Positions 10,141 to 23,372 of a DNA stretch of 24,836 nucleotides are shown here, piece after piece. The stretch spans positions 1-24,836 of the IMG/VR virus record IMGVR_UViG_3300021964_000496; one strand, 5' to 3'. This DNA comes from a virus. The first letter of the stretch is position 1, and every line of letters begins with the position of its first letter. The translations under genes were made by a program, and so were the position numbers. The notes beneath the pieces were generated by a model. It saw only the letters and a list, made by a program, of their open reading frames with translations, was not told the DNA's origin and ran no database searches.

Positions 10141-10144
10141 ACAG

Positions 10145-10164
10145 AAAGTCCTTCGGGACTTTTT
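10145..10164 (+). terminator. Rho-independent terminator before the giant fibre gene
   Basis: AAAGTCC (10145-10151) and GGACTTT (10156-10162) form a perfect 7-bp stem with a TTCG tetraloop and a short T run. The fold is the same type as the terminator after the capsid gene. Confidence 0.85.
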
Positions 10165-10166
10165 GC

Positions 10167-10178
10167 TATTTATAAATA
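10167..10178 (+). promoter_or_regulatory. Putative late promoter (TATTTATA motif) for the giant fibre gene
   Basis: TATTTATAAATA directly abuts the terminator T run and lies 97 bases before the fibre ATG. It shares the 15-base string TGCTATTTATAAATA with the copy before the neck genes, and holds a complete TATAAATA. Confidence 0.6.
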
Positions 10179-10263: not shown

Positions 10264-13200
10264 ATGCCAAACTGGAAAAAATTAATAACCAGCGGTTCAG
10301 ACGCTGCGTTAAATTCATTAAATGTAACATCCGCATTAACTGCAAGCGGATTAATATACCCCACACAAGACGGAGGCAATGGAGATTTCCTTACCACAGA
10401 TGGTATAGGTAATTTAAGTTTTGGTAGGCCAAATGTATATTCAAATGTTAAAAACGTTTCTGGTGGTCAATTACTAAAAGGAACCCCAGTTCATGCAACA
10501 GGAACAGCAGGAAATACTTCTGAAGTTATAGCAGCATCCGCTTCTGTTGCTTCTACTATGCCTGCTACTTTTGTACTAAATGAAACTTTAGCAAATGATG
10601 CTGAAGGTTTAGCTCTAGTAACAGGGTATATTAATGGTATTGATACTTCTGCCTTTGAGGAAGGAGATGTAGTATATGTAGGAGCTACAGGTAGTTATAC
10701 GAATATAAAACCCCAAGGTTCAAATAATCTTATACAAAATATAGGATTAGTAAACAAAGTAGATGCAAGTAATGGTTCAGGATATATTTATGGTTCAGGT
10801 AGATCAAATGATGTACCAACCCTACCAGTAGGTAAGATATGGGTAGGTTCTCCAACATATTCAGTTACTTCTTCAATCGTTACTTTAGATGAAGATAATT
10901 CACAAGCACAAATTACAGGCTCTTTAGATGTATCAGAAAACTTAACAGTTTCAGGTGATGTAACACTTTCAAATGGAAATGCTCTAAGATGGACTTCTGA
11001 CGATGTTAGAATAGAAGGAACAACAGCTGGGGATAATATAAAATTTTATGTAGCTGATACAGAAATATTACAACTAGCTCAATCAGGAACTTTAGCAACT
11101 GTTACAGGTAACTTAAGAGTTACATCAGTACCAACAGGTACAACAGAAAATAAAATATTATTAACAGACGGATCTGGTAATTTAGTTACTAGAACTGATT
11201 TATCGTTACAGGGGGCCACAGGAGCTCAAGGTAGTACTGGAGCTACTGGGCCACAAGGAACTACTGGGGCAACTGGTTCTCAAGGACCGACAGGAGATAC
11301 CGGACCAACAGGTCCTACTGGACCACAAGGAGCTGTAGGATCAACTGGACCAACCGGACCTCAAGGAACAACAGGAGCAACAGGAAGTCAAGGACCTACC
11401 GGACCTACAGGAGCAACAGGACCTCAAGGAAGTACAGGACAGACAGGAAGCCAAGGACCTACTGGTCCTACTGGTCCAACAGGATCTCAAGGACCGACAG
11501 GCCCTACTGGTCCAACAGGACCGCAAGGCTCTACCGGTGCTACTGGATCACAAGGACCTACTGGACCTACTGGTCCAACAGGATCTCAAGGACCAACAGG
11601 TAATACCGGACCAACTGGTCCAACAGGACCTCAAGGTTCTACAGGAGCAACAGGTCCACAAGGTACTACAGGACCTACTGGTCCAACAGGATCTCAAGGA
11701 CCAACTGGATCTACTGGTTCACAAGGACCTACAGGACCAACTGGAGTTCAAGGTGCTGTTGGAGCTCAAGGAGCAGAAGGTAGTTTTGGAGGAGCATCAT
11801 TTTCATACAATTTCAAAACAGCAACAGGGGATGCTGATCCTGGAGCTGGTAAATTAAGATTAGACAATTCCACACAAAATGCCGCTACAGGAATTTATAT
11901 AGACGATCAAGATAATGAAAGCAGTGATATACAGTCTTTCTTAAGAACTATAGATGATTCTACATCAACTATAAAAGGGCATGTAAAATTATCAAATAAA
12001 TTAGATCCTGGACAATTTATTATATTTACAATATCATCATTAGTAGAAAAAACTGGTTATTTTGATATAACAGTTTCTGCTATAGATTCAAGCACAACCA
12101 ATCCATTCTCAGATGATGAAGAAATAATAGCTACTTTTGCTAGAACTGGAGATGCAGGAGATACAGGACCACAAGGTACAACAGGACCTACCGGACCTAC
12201 TGGACCTCAAGGTACAACTGGATCTACAGGACCTACCGGACCTCAAGGTTCTACAGGAGCAACAGGACCACAAGGTACAACAGGACCTACTGGTCCTACT
12301 GGACCTCAAGGTTCTACCGGAGCTACTGGATCCCAAGGCCCAACAGGTTCTACAGGCCCAACAGGTCCTACTGGACCGCAAGGAAGTACGGGACCAACCG
12401 GACCAACAGGACCGCAAGGTTCTACCGGAGCAACAGGAAGTCAAGGACCTACCGGACCTACAGGACCGACTGGAGTACAAGGACCAAATGGACCAACTGG
12501 ACCAACTGGATCTCAAGGTCCAACAGGACCAACCGGACCAACAGGACCGCAAGGTTCTACCGGAGCAACAGGAAGTCAAGGACCTACCGGACCTACTGGC
12601 CCTACAGGCCCAACCGGAGCACAAGGAGCAGTTGGTGCAACAGGACCTACTGGACCTCAAGGTTCTACCGGAGCTACTGGTAGCCAAGGCCCAACAGGTT
12701 CTACTGGACCAACAGGACCTACCGGACCTCAAGGATCAACAGGAGCAACTGGTTCACAAGGACCTACAGGCTCAACAGGACCTACAGGCCCACAAGGAGC
12801 TATAGGAAGTACCGGGCCAACAGGACCTCAAGGATCAACAGGAGCAACTGGACCACAAGGTACAACTGGAACAGATGGTATAAATACAACAGGATTTAAA
12901 ATTGATTATTCCACAACAACTACAGAAGCTGATCCTGGAAGTGGTAATCTAAGATTTAATAACACGGATCCTGCTGCAGCAACAGAAGTATATGTAAGTG
13001 AAACAGATGCTGATGGATTAGGTATTGCCGGGCTATTAGATGAATTAACAACTTCCACATCAAATAATCACTCCTTAATAGCATTAAGAAAATACTCAGA
13101 TCAACAATACTACGATAAATTTTATGTAACAGCCCAAACCGATAATGGAGGTTGGAGAACATTAACTATTTCTCATATTGATAAAAATGGTTGGACTAAT

Positions 13201-15957
13201 GTAAATAATGGAAATGAATTATTTTTCTCTATAGCAATTACTGGGGATAAAGGTACACAAGGAACTACTGGAGCAACAGGTCCTACTGGTCCAACAGGCC
13301 CACAAGGAAGTACCGGATCAACTGGACCGACTGGTCCAACAGGCCCACAAGGAAGTACCGGATCAACTGGACCTACTGGACCTACTGGTAGTCAAGGACC
13401 TACAGGTTCAACCGGACCTACTGGTTCACAAGGACCGACAGGTTCAACTGGATCTCAAGGACCGACAGGTTCAACAGGCCCTACCGGCCCACAAGGAACA
13501 ACAGGTTCAACCGGACCAACAGGACCTACCGGATCTCAAGGACCGACAGGCCCTACTGGACCGACTGGACCAACAGGTAGTCAAGGTCCAACAGGAGCTA
13601 CTGGACCGACTGGACCTACTGGACCTCAAGGAACAACAGGTTCAACTGGACCTACTGGACCTACCGGACCTCAAGGACCAAATGGACCGACAGGCCCTAC
13701 TGGACCTACCGGACCTCAAGGAACAACAGGAGCTACCGGACCTACTGGTTCACAAGGACCTACAGGTTCAACCGGACCTACTGGACCTACTGGTTCACAA
13801 GGACCTACAGGTTCAACCGGACCTACTGGACCTACTGGACCAACAGGCCCACAAGGAAGTACAGGAGCAACAGGTCCTACTGGTCCAACAGGACCTCAAG
13901 GAACAACAGGAGCAACAGGAAGTCAAGGACCGACAGGTTCAACCGGACCTACTGGACCTACCGGACCTCAAGGAAGTACAGGAGCAACTGGACCTACTGG
14001 TCCAACAGGACCTCAAGGAACAACAGGAGCTACCGGAGTTCAAGGACCAAGTGGAATAATACCTTTAGCAACAGATGGAGCAGACAGAATTATAACCTCT
14101 GACGGAGACGGTACAGGAACAGCTGAAGCAAATCTTCAATTTGATGGCAGTACTTTAGAAGTAGCTGGTAACTTATCGGTAACCGATATGATTGGAGGTG
14201 ATGAATTTCTTTCTGTAAATGTTGGTAACGGTGCATTCGCTATAGGAGACTCAGCAGGCATTGCAAACGAAGCTTATATACAAGGTAACGGATGTATTCA
14301 AATATTTAGCTATGGAAGTGAACGAGCTAGGTTTAATGATACTACTACTATTTTTGGTAATGTAAATACACATACACTCTCAGGAGCACAATCAACAATA
14401 GCAGGTGGTCAATTAAACACAGGCTCGGCAAATTGTAGTTTTATAGGAGGTGGAGAATTAAATTTTATTGATGCAGGTGCTATTGATTCATTTATAGGTG
14501 GAGGTTGTTCAAATACAATATGCACTACTGAAGGTTGTGCAGGTATTGTTGGTGGATCAACAAACACCGTAGATGGAGATTGGAGTTTTATAGGTGTGGG
14601 TTGTGCTAATCTAGCAGTAGGAAATAATATTGTTATAGGGGGAGGAGCTGCCAATGAAGCTTGTGCAGGATGTTCCGTTATAGCAGGAGGATTCATAAAT
14701 AAAATATGTGACGGAGAAAATTATGGTGCTATTTTAGGAGGAAGACAAAACTGCGTAGATGGAGATTATTCTGCAATTGGTGGAGGTTATCTTAACTGCG
14801 TTAGAAATAATTGCGGATTTATAGGAGGAGGATATTCTAACGATATAACTCAAACAGTCTCTGTAATTGGTGGAGGTTATAACAACTGTGCTTACGCTGC
14901 CTGCTCAGCAATTTTAGGAGGTCGAGACAACTATGTTGCTTCTTCTTTTGGAGCTATAGCAGGAGGGTATTTAAATTGTGTTAGAGATGTCTGTAGTTTT
15001 GTAGGTGGTGGTTATTCAAATGATATAGCAAATGGTACTTTTAGTAGTATAGTAGGAGGATACAATAACTGTATAACTTCTACAGGAAACTGTCATGTTA
15101 TAGGAGGCGGTAGAAACAATTGTATCGCAAGCTCTGGAGATATTAATACAATTGGTGGTGGTAGAGATAATGATATTATAAGTACTAGTGGATGTAATAC
15201 TATACCTGGAGGTAGTACAAATATTATCACCTCAGCAGCTGGTAATGCAACCATTGGAGGTGGATCAGCAAACTGTATTGAAGGAACAAACGCTAATACA
15301 ATTGCTGGTGGAGGTATAAACCATATAAATAGTTCCGGTGATTATAGTTCTATAGGTGGTGGTCTTTGTAATTATGTTTGTCGTGATTATGTTACTGTAG
15401 CAGGAGGCTGTCAAAACTCAGGATCGGCCGATAGAAGTGGTATTCTAGGAGGTTTTGGAAATACTACTTCACATGGATGTTCATTTATTGTAGGAGTTGA
15501 TATTGAAACACAAGGTGCTTGTACAACATTTGTAAATAATTTATCATATGATGGATTTACAGTAGGTACAGCTAATACAGCAGGTGAAATTGTTTATTTT
15601 GGAGGTGGATCATCATTAACAGCTGGGGATGTACATTACCTAAATTCCTCAGGAAACTGGGTAGCAGCAGATGCTGATGCAGCTTCATCATCTACTGGCT
15701 TATTAGGTATTACTTTAGGAACAAATGGTAGTGATGGTGTATTATTGAGAGGATTTGCTCGATTTACTTCAAATACTAATTATACAGGTATGACTACTGT
15801 AGGTGCACCATTATATGTATCCACATCAGCTGGAGATTTTAATCAACTTGCTACAGTCTTAACAGGTGATATAATAAGAATTATAGGATATGTGGTGGAT
15901 ACTACAAACGATATAATGTACTTCTGTCCTGATACTACTTGGGTAGAAATAGCTTAA
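10264..15957 (+). CDS. Giant collagen-like fibre with Cys-rich beta-roll C-terminus
   Basis: This 1897-residue protein is inferred to be a long trimeric tail or capsid fibre. Order of parts: residues 1-316, fibre head with the WKKL..SGS start and beta strands; 317-507, first Gly-X-Y collagen block; ~508-628, a spacer domain; 629-874, second collagen block; ~875-993, a second spacer related to the first (both have 'DADPG/EADPGSG.LR..N', 'AAT.(I/V)Y(I/V)', 'L...(D/T)..TST' and end at 'TGD.G'); 994-1264, third collagen block; ~1300-1760, more than 20 repeats of about 15-17 residues with the core S.IGGG..N.(I/V); ~1765-1897, a terminal beta domain. The collagen blocks total ~235 triplets, mostly [12 protein letters not shown] and GSQ, with almost no charge. 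About 25 Cys occur, all in the C-terminal part. The repeats resemble trimeric autotransporter (YadA-type) head beta-rolls. It may bind the host surface. Confidence 0.9.
11212..14055 (+). repeat. Collagen-coding repeat DNA (three blocks)
   Basis: Blocks at 11212-11784, 12148-12885 and 13243-14055 encode Gly-X-Y triplets and are repetitive at DNA level too. Examples: a 71-base exact direct repeat at 12391-12461 and 12526-12596 (offset 135 bases); a 44-base tandem copy at 13285-13328 and 13330-13373 (offset 45); a 53-base copy at 13741-13793 and 13786-13838 (offset 45, overlapping). All offsets are multiples of nine, so slippage or recombination would change fibre length while keeping the frame and the Gly-X-Y phase. 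Confidence 0.9.
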
Positions 15958-15967
15958 AAATAATTTT

Positions 15968-16627
15968 ATGGCAGGATTTGATACAGGATACAAAGAAAGA
16001 ACTCTTACTTTTGAAAGTGATAAAATTAAGTACTCTAAAGACGGTAAAGAGTTTAACGTAATGATGGATTGGGAAACCCCAATTATGAAAAGATCAGCTG
16101 AATGGGTTACTAATGGAGGTAAAGCAGAAAGCGTATTAGAATTAGGTTTTGGTATGGGTATATCAGCCGGATTTATTCAAAACTATCAACCGGTACAGCA
16201 TACAATTATAGAAACACACCTAGCTATTGCTGAAAGAGCAAATGCTTGGGCCGGAGAGCGTAATACATATTATGATAGAAATAGACTTAAAAATAGAGTT
16301 ACTATCTTAGGAGGTAAGAACTGGTTTGATGAATTTGGAAAAGACTTTAGCAAATCAGGTTTACAGGAATTTGATGCTATTTTTATAGATACTTATCAAG
16401 ATACAAAGTTACACGAATTTAAAAATTACATTACTAAATTTTTAAAGGTAGGAGGTAGAATGACTTGGTGGAACCCAATGGAAAATTTCATCCCAGACGA
16501 AACTACTAAAAATAGAAGAGAAGTTAGTTACGAACTAATCAGATTAAGTGATCATAAAATTAAAATTCCACAAAATGCATATCATAATACAGACGAGTAT
16601 TACATGCCAATGTATATAAGACAGTAA
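15968..16627 (+). CDS. GAMT-like SAM-dependent methyltransferase
   Basis: This 219-residue protein is a class I methyltransferase most like guanidinoacetate N-methyltransferase and the related arginine methyltransferase RMT2. Visible motifs: WETP at 35-38 (GAMT 'WETPYM'), SAM-binding motif I VLELGFGMGIS at 57-66 (GAMT 'VLEVGFGMAIA'), the acidic ribose-binding turn IIETH at 80-84 (GAMT 'IIECN'), FDAIFIDTYQD at 136-145 (GAMT 'FDGILYDTYPL') and LKVGGRMTWWNP at 159-170. From memory, the Glu of WETP and Asp of DTYP hold the guanidino group in GAMT; here they are Glu36 and Asp141. The substrate could be a small guanidino compound or an arginine in a virion protein. It starts 10 bases after the giant fibre gene, with no terminator between, so it is probably co-transcribed with it. 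Confidence 0.8.
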   Translation: MAGFDTGYKERTLTFESDKIKYSKDGKEFNVMMDWETPIMKRSAEWVTNGGKAESVLELGFGMGISAGFIQNYQPVQHTIIETHLAIAERANAWAGERNTYYDRNRLKNRVTILGGKNWFDEFGKDFSKSGLQEFDAIFIDTYQDTKLHEFKNYITKFLKVGGRMTWWNPMENFIPDETTKNRREVSYELIRLSDHKIKIPQNAYHNTDEYYMPMYIRQ

Positions 16628-16631
16628 AATT

Positions 16632-17315
16632 ATGCCATCAGTAAACCCGGAAATAACATCAGGAGAACTTTATATAGCTTTAGATGGTGCTTCATATACT
16701 TGGAGTGATACAAGGAATGCATCTACGGCAACAACTGCCTATGTATATCAAAATGGTGTTTTAATTAATGCTGAATATACTGGATTAAGAGGTAATACAT
16801 TTAGGATTAGAAGAGGGTATTTACATTTTGATCTTTCCTCAGTTAGCGGTACAATTACAGATTTAGACTTAGATTTATATACAAAATCCCCATCCGTAAC
16901 CAAAGACATTATAATTGTAAAATCTACTGCACCTGATGGTTCTAATATTGCAGTTGGTGACTTTGGAGCTGCAGATTTAAGCACTGCTTACTCAGCTGAG
17001 TTCACCTCCTTTAGTAGTACTGGAGATGCTCAAAATACTATAGCATTAAATAGTACTGCAATATCTGATGCTAATACCAATTCTGAATTAATTTTAGCAG
17101 TAGTAGACCATACTTACGACTATTCAAACTCTCAACCTTCAGGTTTAGGACTTGTATTACAATATCATCTCAATCATTTAACTTTAAAGCCAACTTTAAC
17201 TTATACGGCAGTAACCGGATATGGAAATACCGTAATGGGGGTAGTATCTGCTAATATAGGAGAAGTAACAGGAGTAGCAACAGCCAATATTGGAAAAGTA
17301 ATAGGAGTGCAGTAA
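16632..17315 (+). CDS. Beta-rich virion protein, DNRLRE-like, with C-terminal NIG-V-GV repeats
   Basis: This 227-residue protein has a central region (about 56-80: RIRRGYLHFDLSSVSGTITDLDLDLY) that resembles the DNRLRE/carbohydrate-binding-like beta sandwich, where 'R.Y..FDLS' precedes paired strands. A second half continues as beta sequence (SELILAVVDHTYDYSNSQPSG). The last ~30 residues hold repeats of the form VMGVVSANIGEVTGVATANIGKVIGV, a short 'NI..V.GV' repeat I have seen at the ends of marine phage structural proteins. It lies four bases after the methyltransferase gene. A surface-binding or fibre-tip role is plausible, but no family is certain. Confidence 0.7.
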   Translation: MPSVNPEITSGELYIALDGASYTWSDTRNASTATTAYVYQNGVLINAEYTGLRGNTFRIRRGYLHFDLSSVSGTITDLDLDLYTKSPSVTKDIIIVKSTAPDGSNIAVGDFGAADLSTAYSAEFTSFSSTGDAQNTIALNSTAISDANTNSELILAVVDHTYDYSNSQPSGLGLVLQYHLNHLTLKPTLTYTAVTGYGNTVMGVVSANIGEVTGVATANIGKVIGVQ

Positions 17316-17341
17316 GTTGCTTTTTATAAAAAAAGTTCTTA

Positions 17342-17353
17342 TATTAATAATAA
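17342..17353 (+). promoter_or_regulatory. Variant promoter-like AT motif before the modification cassette
   Basis: TATTAATAATAA lies 27 bases before the oxygenase ATG. It is a variant of the TATTTATA motif, and the 13 bases AAGTTCTTATATT (17333-17345) are identical to those at 22986-22998, where a canonical motif overlaps. So this gap may carry the promoter for the five-gene cassette. Confidence 0.4.
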
Positions 17354-17368
17354 AATAAATTTACAATT

Positions 17369-17962
17369 ATGTACAGTAGTTACAATTTCGATCAAGAGCC
17401 AACAGATGCTCAAAATTATTACTTTTACGAAAAAGGTTTTGACAAAAAAGAGTTGTCAAAAATTTACAAAGGAATCCAGTCATTAGAAGAAACTAAAGCC
17501 ACTACAATCGGTGGCGGTAAAAATGATGTACGCTCTTCTAAAGTACGATGGATCCCGCAAACAGAAGAATGGTGGTGGTTATATGAAAAACTTTCCAACA
17601 TGGCTGTAGAAGCAAATAACTGTTTATGGAAATTTGATATACACTCTTTACCTGAATTGATACAATACACAGAATATCATGCTTCTGATGATGGGCATTA
17701 TACTTGGCATCAAGATATAGGACCAGATATTCTCTCTAAAAGAAAAATATCATTAACAGTACAGCTATCTGATCCTAAAGATTATCAAGGAGGTGATTTA
17801 GAAATGTGGTCAGGAGGTGATGAAAAAAGTGCTGTAAAAGCTCATAAAGGAGCAGGATCAGTTTTTATCTTTCCTTCCTATATGTTACATAGAGTAACCC
17901 CAGTAACCAAAGGTATAAGACGTTCTTTCGTACTTTGGGTAGGAGGTTCTCATTACAGGTAG
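17369..17962 (+). CDS. 2OG-Fe(II) oxygenase, prolyl-4-hydroxylase/PKHD type
   Basis: This 197-residue protein is a 2-oxoglutarate and iron-dependent dioxygenase. The facial triad reads as His114 and Asp116 (YTWHQDIG) and His174 (YMLHRVTPV), with Arg184 or Arg185 (RRSFVLW) binding 2-oxoglutarate. The preceding IQYTEYHASDDGHYTWHQD and the KISLTVQLSDPKDYQGGDLEM segments match the PiuC/PKHD-hydroxylase subfamily. Such genes are frequent in T4-like marine phages, and their substrates are mostly unknown. It leads the cassette: the next gene begins one base after its stop. A collagen-like fibre lies 1.4 kb upstream, so fibre hydroxylation is possible, though Pro sits in the X and not the Y position of its Gly-X-Y triplets. 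Sugar or lipid hydroxylation is the alternative. Confidence 0.93.
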   Translation: MYSSYNFDQEPTDAQNYYFYEKGFDKKELSKIYKGIQSLEETKATTIGGGKNDVRSSKVRWIPQTEEWWWLYEKLSNMAVEANNCLWKFDIHSLPELIQYTEYHASDDGHYTWHQDIGPDILSKRKISLTVQLSDPKDYQGGDLEMWSGGDEKSAVKAHKGAGSVFIFPSYMLHRVTPVTKGIRRSFVLWVGGSHYR

Positions 17963-17963
17963 T

Positions 17964-19727
17964 ATGATAAAAAATCTTGCTAAGTTATGCTTAAATAATG
18001 GAGGCAGCATCTCTCCTTCTATTATTCCTGGTGATCTTATAGATGGGACCGGACTCTGTAATTCGTCTATTTTTATAGATGAAAATGGAGATATTCTACT
18101 TAACTTAAGACATGTACACTACTCTCTTTACCACAGTGAATTTGAACAAAAATATTATAGTGGCTGGGGATGCTTAGCCTACCTTAACCCAGAAGATGAT
18201 ATATGTTTAAAAACAGGAAACTACTTATGTAAGTTAGATCCTGATACTCTTTATATCAAAAAATATAAATTAATTGATACTTCTAAACATGATATTAAAC
18301 CAATTTGGGAATTTATTGGATTAGAAGATGCACGTATTTTTAGATGGGAAGGTAAATTATACGTAAGTGGTGTAAGAAGAGATATAAAAGATGATGGAGA
18401 AGGTAGAATGGAGCTTTGCGAATTATCTGTTTCTAAAGGTAGATATAAAGAAAAATCACGTTTACGTATAGAAGTAGAACCTCATACCTATCTAGAAAAA
18501 AACTGGATGCCTATTTTAGATATGCCCTTCCATTATGTTAGGTGGGCAAATCCTTTAGAAATAGTTAAAGTAGACCCAACTACTCAAACTAAAGTAAAAG
18601 TACAAGAAGGAAAAATTACTACTATACCATGCAAATCTGTCATTAATAAGAGTTTTGAAATATATGGAATAAGAAGCCAGAGAGGTGGATCACAGGTTAT
18701 ACCATTTGGAGATTTTAGAATGGCAGTGACTCATGAGTGTGATTATTGGATTAATGAAGGTAATACTAAAGATGCTAAATACTACCATAGATTTATTTTT
18801 TGGGATAAAGATTGGAATTTAGTAAAATTAAGTGAACCTTTTAAATTTATGAATACTCAAATTGAGTTTAGTTGTGGGTTAGCATATAGAAATGGTGAAT
18901 TTTACATTACATATGGATTTCAAGATAATGCGGCATATGTACTTAGAATGCCGGAAAATTTATTAGATAAATTAGAATATGTAGATTTAGATCAATATAC
19001 TAAATTTGAATGTAAGTATCCTGAGTTTAGTTGGGATAACAACGAACCTTACCTTTCTAAGATTATAAATGATGAAATATTTGTTAATAATATTTACAGA
19101 AAGCATTTCAAAATAAAAGAAGGTGATGTGGTTATGGATATTGGAGCAAATGTAGGTGCTTTTTCTTTTGCCGCGCTTCAAGAAAATATTAAACATCTTT
19201 ATGCTATCGAACCTTCCTCTCTACTTCTACCCACACTCAAAAAAAATATAAACTCAGATACTAAAGTAGATATAATTAATCTCGGAATTGGAAATGACTC
19301 AGAAACGAATAAAATACTTGCTAAAGAAGATAGTGTTAATATTTACGATAATATTAATTCTTCGTACAATACAACTACTTTTTCACAACTTATAGAAGAT
19401 TATAAAATTAAGACTGTAGATTTTTTAAAATGTGATTGCGAAGGAGGAGAGTATTTTATTTTTACAGAAGAAAATGAAGAATGGATTAAATCTAATGTTA
19501 AAAAAATAGCCGGAGAATTTCACCTATGGGGAGTACCATCAGCATTAGATAACTTTTACATATTTAGAGATTTATATCTTACAGAAGAATCTAAATTTAT
19601 AGTAGAAGATAGACAAGGTAATGATGTTACATCACATATGAAAGATGATGAATGGTTAAAAGATTTCAGCTGGTTAAATAAACACTCAGCCCAACTTAAC
19701 GTATACATAGATAATGTTAGAGAATAA
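17964..19727 (+). CDS. GH130-like five-blade propeller fused to FkbM-family methyltransferase
   Basis: This 587-residue protein has two parts. Residues 1-~345 resemble the GH130/GH43-type five-bladed propeller, with GLEDARIF at 119-126, EKNWMPI at 178-184, RGGSQVI at 240-246, His257 (AVTHE) and FYITYGFQDNAAYV at 313-326. GH130 enzymes are mannoside phosphorylases or hydrolases, and the 'GxEDxR' and 'KNW.P' motifs are characteristic. Residues ~375-587 are an FkbM-type O-methyltransferase: SAM-binding VVMDIGANVGAFSF at 389-402, the acidic AIEPS turn, and VDFLKCDCEGGEYFIF at 485-500. FkbM enzymes commonly methylate sugar hydroxyls. A propeller that binds or trims a glycan joined to a glycan methyltransferase suggests a decoration enzyme. 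The 3' end overlaps the next gene by 14 bases. Confidence 0.75.
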   Translation: MIKNLAKLCLNNGGSISPSIIPGDLIDGTGLCNSSIFIDENGDILLNLRHVHYSLYHSEFEQKYYSGWGCLAYLNPEDDICLKTGNYLCKLDPDTLYIKKYKLIDTSKHDIKPIWEFIGLEDARIFRWEGKLYVSGVRRDIKDDGEGRMELCELSVSKGRYKEKSRLRIEVEPHTYLEKNWMPILDMPFHYVRWANPLEIVKVDPTTQTKVKVQEGKITTIPCKSVINKSFEIYGIRSQRGGSQVIPFGDFRMAVTHECDYWINEGNTKDAKYYHRFIFWDKDWNLVKLSEPFKFMNTQIEFSCGLAYRNGEFYITYGFQDNAAYVLRMPENLLDKLEYVDLDQYTKFECKYPEFSWDNNEPYLSKIINDEIFVNNIYRKHFKIKEGDVVMDIGANVGAFSFAALQENIKHLYAIEPSSLLLPTLKKNINSDTKVDIINLGIGNDSETNKILAKEDSVNIYDNINSSYNTTTFSQLIEDYKIKTVDFLKCDCEGGEYFIFTEENEEWIKSNVKKIAGEFHLWGVPSALDNFYIFRDLYLTEESKFIVEDRQGNDVTSHMKDDEWLKDFSWLNKHSAQLNVYIDNVRE

Positions 19728-21117
19728 CTTAGAATCACATATTAATCAATACGTACAAGATCCACTTTCATCGGATAATAATTTTTGGCTAGCATATGAA
19801 TATGAAAAAATAGGTCAAAATGCAGCAGCCTTATCCTATTATTTAAGATGTGCAGAAATATCTAATGATAGAGATTTAGTTTACGAATGCTTACTTAAAT
19901 CTTGGTTAATGTTAAATAGAACTGGAAGAAGAGAGTGGTACGAGCATCAACAGTTACTAACTGCAATAACTCAACATCCAAAACGACCAGAAGCTTATTT
20001 TTTACTTAGTAGATTACATGAAGGCAAGCAAGAGTGGAAACAATGTTACTATTACGCAAGTGTTGGATTAGAATTATGTGATTTCAATCTTCCTAAATTA
20101 AGAACAGATGTTGACTACCCCGGTGATTTTGCATTACTATTTCAAAAAGCTTTTGGTAGTTGGTACGTAGGACAAAGAAAGCTTTCCCAACAACTTTGGT
20201 TACAGTTATCTCATAGAGAAGATTTATACGGTAAGTATAAAGAGCTCACTTTGAGTAATTTAAAAGATTTTGGTAGTAAAGTAGATACACAAGAAGAAAA
20301 AGAAATTGATATAGTTCTTCAAGGGAAGTATTCAAAATACGCATTAGATACTGCTGAACATTATTTAAACTTAGAGTTTGTAAATAAAGTAATTATTTCT
20401 TGCTGGGTAGATGATGTGCTTCCTGTACCTAATAATGAAAGGATAATTTTTATACAAAACAACTATCCTTCAGTAAATGGAACAGGCAACAGAAATTTAC
20501 AAATAGTTTCTTCATATGGAGGTCTTAAACACGTTACCACAGACTTTGCTATCAAAATGCGTAACGACCAAAGATATGATCTTGATAGTATGAACAAAAT
20601 GTATGATTTTTTTCACCAAAATAAAGAGCGAATCACTACATTTGAAGGTGATGAAACAAAACCTAAAAATAGAATACTGGTGGCAGGTATGTTTGAAGGT
20701 TTTCCATTTCATCCAAGAGATCATGTTTTTTGGGGACATAAAGAAGATCTTTTAGATATTTTTGATATGCCTTTAGAACCTACAGGTATAGAGGATAAGG
20801 TAAAAATGAAACGAGAAGATTATTGGAAATATTATGACTGCTATATCAGAACAGAATCCTATATAGGTAGCCACTATGCTTCTAAATTTGATGAAAGAAT
20901 TAAAAAATGGCTTTTAAAACCTGAACAGTATCTATATGATGATTCTCCTTATTATCAAGATGCATTAGTATTAAGTGAAAATTTATCTAAAAAAATATTT
21001 AAATCATTTCCTAAAGAAGGTATAGATTTAGAATGGGATAAATATAACTGGCCTACTTATCCCTACGATTCGCAATACAGTAGGTTTAATGAAAGATGGC
21101 ATGAAGACGGATATTAA
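19714..21117 (+). CDS. TPR-containing WavE-like glycosyltransferase
   Basis: This 467-residue protein has an N-terminal helical half (1-~190) that reads as tetratricopeptide-like repeats (WLAYEYEKIGQNAAALSYYL at 25-44, EAYFLLSRLHEGKQEWKQCY near 93-112). The C-terminal half (~195-467) resembles the WavE lipopolysaccharide-synthesis family: IDIVLQGKYSKYALDTAEHY at 198-217, NRNLQIVSSYGGLKHV at 259-274, FAIKMRNDQRYDL at 278-290 and HVFWG. WavE-type proteins are putative glycosyltransferases of bacterial surface glycans. TPR plus glycosyltransferase domains are common in protein O-glycosylation enzymes and in phage proteins of this kind. It starts inside the upstream gene (14-base overlap) and its own end overlaps the next gene by 29 bases, so translation is probably coupled. 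Confidence 0.75.
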   Translation: MLENNLESHINQYVQDPLSSDNNFWLAYEYEKIGQNAAALSYYLRCAEISNDRDLVYECLLKSWLMLNRTGRREWYEHQQLLTAITQHPKRPEAYFLLSRLHEGKQEWKQCYYYASVGLELCDFNLPKLRTDVDYPGDFALLFQKAFGSWYVGQRKLSQQLWLQLSHREDLYGKYKELTLSNLKDFGSKVDTQEEKEIDIVLQGKYSKYALDTAEHYLNLEFVNKVIISCWVDDVLPVPNNERIIFIQNNYPSVNGTGNRNLQIVSSYGGLKHVTTDFAIKMRNDQRYDLDSMNKMYDFFHQNKERITTFEGDETKPKNRILVAGMFEGFPFHPRDHVFWGHKEDLLDIFDMPLEPTGIEDKVKMKREDYWKYYDCYIRTESYIGSHYASKFDERIKKWLLKPEQYLYDDSPYYQDALVLSENLSKKIFKSFPKEGIDLEWDKYNWPTYPYDSQYSRFNERWHEDGY

Positions 21118-21934
21118 TATAGGGCTATCAGGTTCTAAATTAGAGATACTACCTAAAGGACTTATAAGAAAATATTCTCCAGGGGACCATTTTAACGATA
21201 GATTTAAATTACAAATAGAGAAACAGATTGCATTTTCTAAAGATAATTTTAATAACCTTTTTACACCAGATATAACACAGTACACTAATGAATATTTTGA
21301 TATGCAATATATTCCTGGTGAAAGTTATAACGAATTTTTTAGTAAATGTAATAAACAAGATCTAGATAATATAGTCAATATATGTATAAACTATTTTAAT
21401 AAAGCTCTTCTATCATCAAAAACTTACACAGATGACGATATTAAATCTTTACTTATAGATAAATTTAATAAATTAAAAAAAGAATCTACATACTGTAATT
21501 ATATACATTATATTACAGATAAAATTAACTGTACACAATTTAGTAATATACCAAAAACTCCCTGTCATGGAGATTTTACCGTTGCTAATATGATATTTTT
21601 TAAAGGTAAGATATGTTGTATAGATTTTTTAGATTCTTATATAGAAACGGTAATAGTAGATATGGTAAAATTAAAACAAGACATTTACTATACGTGGATT
21701 TTAGATACTAATAAAGGTAATCTAAGAATAAGACAAAGCTTCAATTACTTGTGGAATAAAATATATTCGCAATTTAAACAGTACTATAATTTGGAATTTA
21801 CAAATTTTATTACTATCTTAAATTGGTTAAGAATAGAGCCGTATGTAAAAACTGATAAGCAAAAAATAGTTTTAAATAACAAGATAATCAGTTCAAAATA
21901 TTATGAAGAGTTTATTAATTCCTATAGCGGGTAA
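21089..21934 (+). CDS. APH/choline-kinase-like small-molecule kinase
   Basis: This 281-residue protein belongs to the aminoglycoside phosphotransferase/choline kinase fold. The catalytic block is PCHGDFTVANMIF at 158-170 (His160, Asp162 catalytic base, Asn167 for metal), followed by the metal-binding CCIDFLDSY (Asp179) and a supporting Asp191. The N-terminal lobe is less clear (KGLIRKYSPGDHFNDRFKLQIEKQIAF). Substrates of the fold include sugars, choline, ethanolamine and aminoglycosides. In this cassette, phosphorylation of a sugar or an amino-alcohol for activation by the next gene is likely. The start is either ATG 21089 or ATG 21101; both lie inside the glycosyltransferase gene. The codon use is markedly AT-rich compared with the capsid genes, a sign of recent acquisition. 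Confidence 0.75.
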   Translation: MKDGMKTDINIGLSGSKLEILPKGLIRKYSPGDHFNDRFKLQIEKQIAFSKDNFNNLFTPDITQYTNEYFDMQYIPGESYNEFFSKCNKQDLDNIVNICINYFNKALLSSKTYTDDDIKSLLIDKFNKLKKESTYCNYIHYITDKINCTQFSNIPKTPCHGDFTVANMIFFKGKICCIDFLDSYIETVIVDMVKLKQDIYYTWILDTNKGNLRIRQSFNYLWNKIYSQFKQYYNLEFTNFITILNWLRIEPYVKTDKQKIVLNNKIISSKYYEEFINSYSG

Positions 21935-22964
21935 ATCTACAAGATTTCCTAATACAAGACCTAAGTGGATGTTAACTCATCCTAAAAGCGGGTACTTTAT
22001 GGGTATAGAAAGTATTAGAGGAATTAATTTAGATTTTTTTGATAAGATATATTTTATAGGTTTAAAAGAACATTCTGATAAATTCAAATACGAAAAAGGA
22101 TTTAAATACGAATTATCTAAGTTAAATATAGAAGATAAAACTGAATTAATTTTACTAGATAAAAGTACTAAATCTCAATCTGAAACAATTTATCAAGCAC
22201 TAATAAAAAAGAATATCAAAGGATTTATCACAATTAAAGACTCAGATAACTTTTTTGAATGTACGTTTTATGGAACTGCTAATAAAGTATCTTATTACAA
22301 TCTTCATGATACTACTAATATTAATCCAAGTAATAAAAGTTACATACAGCTTGACGAAAATAACGTAATAACCAATATCGTAGAAAAATCGATTATAAGC
22401 CCTACTTTTTCCATAGGTGGATATTCTTTTAATTCAGCAGACGATTTTATTGAGAGCTTTGAATCTATAAAAGATATTGAAGGCGAATGTTATATTAGTA
22501 ATATAATTTACGATATGATGTTAAAAAATCAAGTATTTCATGGACAAGTATGCACAAACTATAAAGATTGGGGTACATTAGAAGATTGGAACAATTACAA
22601 AGCACAGTATAACACTCTTTTTATAGACATAGATGGTACTTTAGTAGAAAATACTTCTCATAAATTTCCTCCATACATCGGTAACGGAAAACCATTAGTG
22701 AAAAATATTAAATGGTTAAAAGAATTATATAAAAAAGGTAAGACAGAGGTAATTTTAACCACAAGCAGACCAGAATTATTTAAACAGGAAACTTTAATAG
22801 AGTTATATGAAAAAGAAATACCTTACGATAAATTGATAATGGGGCTGAATCACTCTAAAAGAATTATTATAAATGATTATGCTAATTCTAATCCATATCC
22901 TTCTTGTGATTCTATAAACATTAAAAGAAACTCTGATAGTTTAGATACTTATAAAATTAATTAA
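21903..22964 (+). CDS. Nucleotidyltransferase fused to HAD phosphatase
   Basis: This 353-residue bifunctional protein has two parts. Residues 1-~235 are a nucleoside-diphosphate-sugar-type transferase: SLLIPIAGKSTRFPNTRPKW at 3-22 is the NTP-binding loop with its Lys, KDSD at 112-115 is the metal-binding acidic motif, and GTLEDW occurs near 224. Residues ~238-353 are a HAD domain: FIDIDGTLVEN at 240-250 (nucleophile Asp242, Asp244), TTSRPE at 286-291 and INDYA at 323-327. The HAD part is like the small sugar/capsule-associated phosphatases. The combination could make an activated sugar or CDP-alcohol and dephosphorylate an intermediate. It overlaps the kinase gene by 32 bases, suggesting sequential enzymes, in the manner of choline kinase and cytidylyltransferase pairs (LicA/LicC). 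The exact substrate cannot be read from sequence. Confidence 0.8.
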   Translation: MKSLLIPIAGKSTRFPNTRPKWMLTHPKSGYFMGIESIRGINLDFFDKIYFIGLKEHSDKFKYEKGFKYELSKLNIEDKTELILLDKSTKSQSETIYQALIKKNIKGFITIKDSDNFFECTFYGTANKVSYYNLHDTTNINPSNKSYIQLDENNVITNIVEKSIISPTFSIGGYSFNSADDFIESFESIKDIEGECYISNIIYDMMLKNQVFHGQVCTNYKDWGTLEDWNNYKAQYNTLFIDIDGTLVENTSHKFPPYIGNGKPLVKNIKWLKELYKKGKTEVILTTSRPELFKQETLIELYEKEIPYDKLIMGLNHSKRIIINDYANSNPYPSCDSINIKRNSDSLDTYKIN

Positions 22965-23033: not shown

Positions 23034-23321
23034 ATGGCAAATCAAAAGTTATCAAAAGAAGAATTAGCGCAAATTGAAGAAATTCAAACTAGAACACAAG
23101 CAGTTAAGACAGAGCTAGGTCAGTTAGGTCTTGCTGAGATTGATCTTAAAAACCGTAGAACTAACGTAGAAAACTATTTAGTAGAAACTCAAGAACTTGA
23201 AACTAAATTAGTAAAAGATTTAGAAGACAAGTACGGTAAAGGATCTATAGATTTGCAAAACGGTGAATTTATTCCTTCACCAGAGCAGCCTACAAAAGAA
23301 GTTCTGCCAACGGTAGAGTAA
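23034..23321 (+). CDS. Small coiled-coil protein upstream of the tail sheath, unknown
   Basis: This 95-residue protein consists mainly of a long charged helix (about 5-75) with heptad-like spacing of Leu, Ile and Val (LSKEELAQIEEIQTRTQAVK, LGQLGLAEIDLKNRRTNVEN), followed by a Pro/Glu-rich tail (FIPSPEQPTKEVLPTVE). No Cys or membrane segment. Its codon use is like that of the capsid genes. Small coiled-coil proteins of this type recur near tail genes in T4-like marine phages, but I know of no assigned function. Its leader (AATATATTAAAATG) lacks a Shine-Dalgarno sequence. Confidence 0.75.
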   Translation: MANQKLSKEELAQIEEIQTRTQAVKTELGQLGLAEIDLKNRRTNVENYLVETQELETKLVKDLEDKYGKGSIDLQNGEFIPSPEQPTKEVLPTVE

Positions 23322-23347
23322 TTTAAATTACATTCTAGGAGTTTATA

Positions 23348-23372
23348 GGGGAAGGTTTTGCACCTTCCCTTC
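23348..23372 (+). terminator. Probable terminator before the tail sheath gene
   Basis: GGGAAGGT (23349-23356) pairs perfectly with ACCTTCCC (23362-23369) around a 5-base loop. The T run after it is short (TTCC), so termination may be partial. A TATTTATA motif follows within five bases. Confidence 0.6.

Follow-up and report, generated by a model that had tools for sequence, protein, structure and literature searches.

The window, i.e., the whole stretch of 24,836 nucleotides analyzed here, belongs to a T4-like phage whose nearest named relative is Flavobacterium phage immuto. In its late gene block, a collagen-like fibre gene is followed by genes for modifying enzymes, which raises the question of what these enzymes act on. 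Judged from sequence comparison and predicted structure, they probably hydroxylate and glycosylate the phage's own collagen-like fibre. This was the central idea of a first-pass annotation of this DNA, and it is supported by the co-occurrence of the genes and by the covariation of fibre proline with an oxygenase, whereas the make-up proposed for the pathway had to be revised.

The fibre gene (10264..15957, + strand) encodes a protein of 1897 amino acids with matches to Pfam Collagen (E 5e-100) and to tail fibre PHROGs. It comprises 237 Gly-X-Y triplets in three uninterrupted runs of 64, 82, and 91 (nt 11212-11787, 12148-12885, and 13243-14061), and such long runs are the mark of collagen-like proteins. 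Since 0 of 3,569 composition-shuffled ORFs passed the collagen criterion, the repeats are not due to chance. The fibre is indeed rich in Gly-Pro-Thr as annotated (92 of the 237 triplets), with proline occupying 53% of the X positions and threonine 69%, glutamine 25%, and valine, asparagine, and isoleucine about 1% each of the Y positions. Upstream of the gene, a pattern scan found a terminator-like hairpin (10142-10165, +) followed by the T4-late-promoter-like TATAAATA (10171-10178, +), a consensus match; in the window, such consensus matches were found 12 times compared to 5.0 expected. The same type of scan placed a second terminator-like hairpin at 23347..23371 (+), which closes the fibre-cassette block. 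A small conserved protein (23034..23321, +), found just ahead of the tail sheath in almost every relative, lies outside the cassette.

Re-examination of the ORFs confirmed the coordinates, gene order, fusions, gaps, and overlaps of the first-pass annotation. The 2OG-Fe(II) oxygenase gene (2OG) ends at 17962, one base before the GH130-like and FkbM fusion gene (17964-19727, +), which overlaps the TPR and WavE gene by 14 bases; this in turn overlaps the APH gene by 29 bases and the latter the nucleotidyltransferase-HAD gene by 32 bases. Of the six enzyme genes listed, 2OG, FkbM, WavE, and APH are borne out by domain matches, while the methyltransferase and HAD matches are weak. The methyltransferase-like protein (15968..16627, +) reaches only E 0.018 for Methyltransf_3, which is below the cut-off, and its supposed GAMT-like identity could not be confirmed. 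It is separated from the other five enzymes by a gene which had gone unmentioned, coding for a CBM96-like protein (16632..17315, +; E 3e-4) that is no enzyme. Both proteins were rejected as cassette members, as they follow the fibre regardless of glycosyltransferase or collagen, the methyltransferase also in relatives lacking both; they are companions of the fibre in general.

The 2OG gene (17369..17962, +) encodes a prolyl-hydroxylase-like protein (2OG-FeII_Oxy_3, E 4e-14). The HxD...H iron triad and the 2OG-binding arginine are intact, with His114, Asp116, His174, and Arg184 invariant in 27 sequences, and fold matches to PiuC, PPHD, and PHD2-type prolyl hydroxylases reach a TM of up to 0.77. 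The enzyme thus displays the double-stranded beta-helix with iron triad and arginine that defines 2OG prolyl hydroxylases. It had been proposed to finish an attached sugar, but the better reading is a prolyl hydroxylase that acts early and on a protein, the putative substrate being the fibre.

The first domain of the fusion gene (17964..18968, +) is glycosyltransferase-like and carries a G-x-E-D-x-R motif kept in 246 of 249 homologues. A fold search was needed for this domain (GT), because a PDB sequence search with its profile gave chance antibody matches only. With the predicted structure (AF2 pLDDT 84), the top 33 PDB matches were all GH130-fold or GT108 proteins (best E 2.7e-8, TM about 0.44-0.58), comprising phosphorylases, mannosyltransferases, and putative glycosidases, and the prediction shows their five-bladed beta-propeller. 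The motif, a candidate site for the catalytic Asp of these enzymes, aligns with GIEDCR of Uhgb_MS, but at E 0.45. The GH130 profile PF04041 did not match the window protein in a Pfam search and weakly matched 4 of 25 homologues (best E 1.4e-4). As the profile cut-off is not reached, GT is filed as a GH130/GT108 fold relative and not as a family member, so that the label GH130-like holds for the predicted propeller but not for the family sequence profile. A TPR protein is fused to GT or encoded next after it in 221 of 239 homologues. Several homologues sit among other glycosyltransferases. A cellular gene acquired by phages was considered as the origin of GT and discarded; a scan of genome contigs returned one MAG contig (L087), which is probably itself viral.

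Behind the GH130-like domain, an FkbM methyltransferase domain is fused (19137..19520, +; PF05050, E 8e-12; TIGR01444). The next gene (19714..21117, +) combines an N-terminal TPR region of about 190 amino acids with a WavE-like glycosyltransferase (Pfam match at nt 20488-20904, E 8e-13). Both the WavE and the FkbM family are known mainly for their part in host glycans. In the window, the phage-encoded glycosyltransferase lies among structural genes, as is typical of phage virion glycosylation systems. An APH-family small-molecule kinase (21089..21934, +; Pfam APH, E 1.5e-5) and a fusion of a nucleotidyltransferase with a HAD-type phosphatase (21903..22964, +) complete the cassette. The nucleotidyltransferase part matches the NDP-sugar pyrophosphorylase 4evw by profile (E 1e-4), the HAD part is weak (E 4e-4). 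Both genes are present as annotated, but they are not constant members: among relatives, they form an optional, mobile module, putatively for making a donor. The pair also occurs elsewhere in nucleotide-sugar operons.

Whether the cassette travels with collagen fibres was examined in several hundred related virus fragments. In the tail sheath slot of the window's own phage lineage, collagen was found in 12 of 13 loci with GT and in 4 of 24 loci without (Fisher p 1e-5). These calls were corrected by whole-record searches, since an initial table (12/1/1/18) had missed the collagen repeats of L303, L311, and L313, which lay outside the viewed stretch. The strictest test, a small one restricted to slots wholly in view, gave 6/1/1/6 (p 0.03). 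On the sheath tree with the initial labels, about 3.8 of 6 supported independent contrasts agree and 0.1 disagree. In unrelated terminase/portal phages, with backbone identities of 84% or more across the aligned set, collagen accompanied GT in 8/8 loci and was present in 1/7 loci without GT (p 0.0014). L038 and L043, with GT but no visible collagen, were left out because their contigs end shortly upstream; the end of the cut first ORF of L043 resembles the C-terminus of the L129 collagen fibre, and counting both as negatives gives 8/2/1/6 (p 0.015). Direct adjacency of GT and collagen was seen in 21/77 loci after dereplication of GT at 90% (7.0 expected) and in 9/39 at 70% (3.4 expected, p 0.003). 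When a 294-aa structural gene from L040 served as the scan query, the yield was 4 loci, which was uninformative.

GT thus tracks collagen in two unrelated phage types, in line with the first-pass annotation, which had itself suggested co-occurrence as a check. The opposite case, a cassette without a collagen fibre, occurs once in a fully viewed sheath slot (L071, with GT-TPR) and in several more distant lineages, and is for this reason the exception and not the rule. Among divergent GT loci, 12/39 have no collagen in view, and in S-SCSM2R GT-TPR and collagen are about 8 kb apart. Synechococcus phage DSL-LC02 encodes a collagen-like protein (WJZ48255) divergently from GT. Gly-Pro-Thr, to which the annotation had attached importance, was rejected as the needed acceptor, as GT pairs in most relatives with shafts almost without proline that carry Gln or Thr at Y. 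Linked inheritance of neighboring genes could inflate the co-occurrence.

The presence of 2OG follows collagen proline. Among 68 loci with GT and collagen, 2OG was present in 10/12 Pro-rich ones (at least 15% Pro at X) and in 0/56 Pro-poor ones (p 2e-10). All 5 independent tree contrasts agree, the sign test p of 0.0625 being the floor for five pairs, and this is the only tree test in which every contrast agrees. In scans not selected on 2OG, 10/11 collagen ORFs with 2OG nearby are Pro-rich, compared to 8/91 without. A 2OG-selected scan found collagen in 28/35 loci, Pro-rich in 20/28 and in 14/21 of those lacking GT. The near-minimal pair L012 and L463 shares the fibre C-terminus and the following genes, while shaft proline and 2OG/GT differ together. 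Exceptions are L417, L433, L453, and L460, where 2OG lies beside a Pro-poor collagen.

Neither this proline tracking nor that of Gly-X-Y shafts by GT, within one conserved slot and in two unrelated phage types, would be predicted if the enzymes remodelled host surface glycans (LPS or capsule) against superinfection and neighbored the fibre only through a shared hypervariable host-interaction region. In favor of such remodelling, envelope glycan genes typically include WavE and FkbM, some of the GT homologues have other glycosyltransferases around them, APH-NTP/HAD is found in nucleotide-sugar operons, and glycosyltransferases of pelagimyophage tail-fibre regions have been assigned to host O-chain change (PMC7029224), but on balance we consider this explanation unlikely. 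The link of 2OG to proline is the tightest one and persists without GT, and GT loci lacking collagen exist; both would fit a role of 2OG alone on the fibre, with glycosyltransferases and donor genes serving another virion protein or DNA and linked by neighborhood. Given that in two unrelated slots GT-TPR goes along with collagen shafts, even without 2OG and proline, this is improbable. Neutral exchange of fibre and cassette as one linked segment, the enzymes having no fibre role, would fit adjacent genes in a region of a type known as hypervariable (PMC7029224) but is very improbable, as enzyme sets and shafts recombine yet stay matched (L012 vs. L463), unrelated genomes show this pairing again, and active-site motifs are intact.

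The best reading is a modular phage collagen-maturation cassette for prolyl hydroxylation and glycosylation, with chemistry, sugar, and acceptor proposed from the genes. Observed are the genes, their folds, the intact motifs, and the repeated co-gain and co-loss of GT with collagen and of 2OG with collagen proline. Once the fibre chain is made, 2OG would hydroxylate the X-position proline of Gly-Pro-Thr/Gln repeats. The GH130/GT108-fold enzyme, to which the TPR protein may present the repetitive polypeptide, would then add a sugar to the shaft, with Ser/Thr as the most likely acceptors and, by its fold, mannose-type chemistry. The WavE-like transferase might extend this glycan and the FkbM domain cap it by methylation, with APH kinase and nucleotidyltransferase-HAD making the activated donor. 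The substrates, acceptor residues, sugar, and step order are inferred, as is the benefit, which may be shaft stability or shielding. More tentatively, aquatic phages of several unrelated lineages may have a common system that combines PiuC/PHD-like proline hydroxylation and TPR-guided O-glycosylation by a GH130-fold enzyme on the same shaft.

If true, protein O-glycosyltransfer would be a new activity for the GH130 fold and the cassette the first bacteriophage collagen-modification pathway; among openly accessible journal papers, no report of phage collagen glycosylation or hydroxylation was found. Some unexplained phage fibre-region glycosyltransferases, usually assigned to host O-antigen change, might thereby gain a possible target, and the cassette could be an enzyme source for hydroxylated or glycosylated recombinant collagen. 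The abundant auxiliary genes of Baltic viruses include those for prolyl 4-hydroxylases, and their viral use "remains cryptic" (PMC9301287); collagen-like fibre modification would be a testable answer for one widespread phage 2OG subfamily.

Among known systems, Mimivirus L230, a lysyl hydroxylase/glucosyltransferase, is described as modifying the virus's own collagen-like protein (cited in PMC8968730), as is proposed here from the genes. However, Mimivirus is a eukaryotic giant virus, the target in that account is lysine/hydroxylysine, folds and gene types differ, and the window shaft is virtually without lysine among its main X/Y residues. A prolyl hydroxylase, as predicted here, is also encoded by Paramecium bursaria Chlorella virus; it is a prolyl 4-hydroxylase, and there is evidence that proteins of the virus contain 4-hydroxyproline (Eriksson 1999, cited in PMC9301287). 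This is a eukaryotic virus, however, and a collagen-fibre neighborhood with a companion glycosyltransferase is not described in that citation. Mycobacteriophages glycosylate virion proteins by phage-encoded enzymes (Freeman et al. 2023, as cited in PMC12619734), though on capsid and tail-tube C-termini instead of a collagen fibre, and the citing text reports no hydroxylase. The Bacillus spore protein BclA is likewise collagen-like and glycosylated, and the B. anthracis P4H is active on collagen peptides (PMC8968730). BclA is, however, a cellular protein with its own glycosyltransferases. To our knowledge, that system has no GH130-fold enzyme or TPR partner. GH130 mannoside phosphorylases and the GT108 mannosyltransferases of Leishmania have the five-bladed propeller that is predicted in the window, and the conserved E-D motif of GT may correspond to theirs, but GT is about 10-16% identical, has a TPR companion, and is phage-encoded. 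We know of no protein acceptor for these enzymes. Finally, PKHD-type PiuC/YbiX and PHD/PPHD hydroxylases resemble 2OG in sequence (E 1e-8), fold, and intact active site, whereas the window enzyme belongs to a distinct phage subfamily that is tied to collagen-like fibres.

The window covers part of the genome of a T4-like phage; its major capsid protein shares 71% identity with that of Flavobacterium phage immuto. A collagen-like fibre of 1897 aa is encoded between the head-completion genes and the tail sheath, and its C-terminal part (14400-15600) comprises, as a second repeat type besides the collagen runs, many Gly-Gly-Gly/Asn-Cys-rich repeats (SFIGGGxxN...). Behind the fibre gene come a methyltransferase-like gene and a CBM96-like gene, and then five genes that encode enzyme domains. 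The gene gaps and overlaps which the first-pass annotation had listed for this cassette were all reproduced on re-measurement. The order of fibre and sheath is the same in immuto, which lacks the cassette. Upstream of the fibre, a hairpin and TATAAATA were identified, and a further hairpin lies 3′ of the small gene preceding the sheath, all by consensus match only; this arrangement on both sides of the block fits one late transcription unit.

The GH130-like domain was modeled on the basis of 24 homologues (mean pLDDT 84). The predicted structure matches GH130 beta-1,2-mannobiose phosphorylases as well as Leishmania GT108 GDP-mannose transferases, and its 33 best PDB matches all belong to the GH130/GT108 fold family, in which the five-bladed propeller and the inverting chemistry are common to both groups (PMC8950772). 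The motif G-x-E-D-x-R, which aligns weakly with a GH130-fold mannoside synthase, is retained in 246 of 249 homologues. A TPR protein is fused to this glycosyltransferase-like domain (GT) or encoded directly 3′ of it in 221/239 cases. In other systems, TPR regions bind polypeptides as substrates, which makes it plausible by analogy that the transferase acts on protein.

A first GT scan yielded 382 relatives, of which 80 were kept, and here the gene before the GT is repeatedly a collagen-like fibre, across quite different neighborhoods. Within loci, direct adjacency of GT and collagen gene was counted in 21 of 77 cases vs. 7.0 expected (dereplicated at 90%) and in 9 of 39 vs. 3.4 expected (p 0.003; dereplicated at 70%). 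Synechococcus phage DSL-LC02 has a gene annotated as collagen-like next to, and divergent from, one annotated as a beta-mannosyltransferase. The only match in the bacterial genome collection (L087), a contig with a sheath-like ORF in a Rhodobacteraceae MAG, is probably viral contamination. In another relative (L146:2710-9507), three tandem collagen-like genes precede a GH130-like domain that carries a radical SAM/SPASM domain as fusion partner in place of FkbM.

In the slot that the cassette occupies in the window, relatives found by a tail sheath search have the fibre C-terminal part, the methyltransferase and the CBM96-like gene in common. When whole records were searched, collagen repeats were found in 12/13 records with the GT vs. 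4/24 without it (p 1e-5), and none of the 24 contained a GT elsewhere. Counting only slots that lie wholly in view reduces the table to 6/1/1/6 (p 0.03). In one sheath slot (L303:1748-7815), the GT-TPR pair is replaced by a 1282-aa GT9 + GT1 protein and an FkbM gene; this record contains collagen repeats.

In a second, different phage type, the genes next downstream are those for terminase and portal, and the terminases of the aligned set are 84% or more identical. Here all 8 resolved loci with GT-TPR also have collagen, as against a single one of the 7 loci that lack the GT (p 0.0014). The main statistical limits of all co-occurrence figures given here are relatedness and linkage, for which the trees control only in part, and the reliance on contig fragments; the tree contrasts of both phage types point in the same direction, the opposite almost never occurring, and are too few for significance alone.

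The HxD...H/Arg active site of the 2OG-Fe(II) oxygenase (2OG) is intact, and its fold is closest to PiuC and PHD-type prolyl hydroxylases. Of 68 dereplicated loci with GT and collagen, 12 have 15% proline or more at X of Gly-X-Y (Pro-rich); 2OG occurs in 10 of these 12 and in none of the 56 others, and on the GT tree 2OG and proline agree in 5/5 independent contrasts. Collagen ORFs from scans that had not used 2OG for selection are Pro-rich in 10 of 11 cases with 2OG nearby vs. 8 of 91 without (p 3e-7). When loci were selected on 2OG alone, 28/35 had collagen, and 20 of these 28 were Pro-rich; of the collagen loci without GT, 14/21 were Pro-rich. L146 is one of two Pro-rich cases without 2OG, and four loci (L417, L433, L453, L460) show a 2OG gene near Pro-poor collagens.

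L012 and L463 come close to a minimal pair, sharing the fibre C-terminus and the genes after it. L012 contains GT-TPR and a Pro-free shaft, whereas L463 lacks the GT and combines a shaft having 72% proline at X with three consecutive 2OG-family genes. Behind its fibre (L463:10001-14412, on a contig shared with L311), these three genes occur together with PhyH and radical SAM/SPASM genes, a different modification set in the slot used by the window. A second copy of the pre-sheath small gene inside the variable slot (L012:8500-8754; L463:8490-8744) is perhaps a remnant or recombination point.

The APH-family kinase adjoins the nucleotidyltransferase-HAD fusion in 27/28 cases. Both follow WavE in the relatives of the window and are missing from some, e.g., L004. 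The pair also occurs far from any collagen in phage operons (L096-L104) which look like nucleotide-sugar synthesis and glycosyltransfer operons, and neighboring genes presumably resemble GDP-mannose dehydratase and GDP-fucose synthase, judging from their sequence starts. As an optional module, kinase and fusion fit donor synthesis, though they do not point to collagen in particular.

The genes, their folds and motifs and their co-occurrence are observed, and a modular collagen-maturation cassette is the simplest account of the locus. The hydroxylase would be present where the shaft holds proline and GT-TPR where the shaft is to be glycosylated, while the capping and donor genes would be the variable parts. 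From this pattern we infer the substrate, residue, sugar, order and benefit of fibre modification.

No report of a bacteriophage modifying collagen was found in the openly accessible literature. Glycosylated virions are known for mycobacteriophages (PMC12619734), and one paper calls the way in which viruses use prolyl hydroxylases cryptic (PMC9301287). The bacteriophage case would be new, as collagen modification is already known to be encoded by eukaryotic viruses (PMC8968730, PMC9301287) and to occur in Bacillus spores (PMC8968730).
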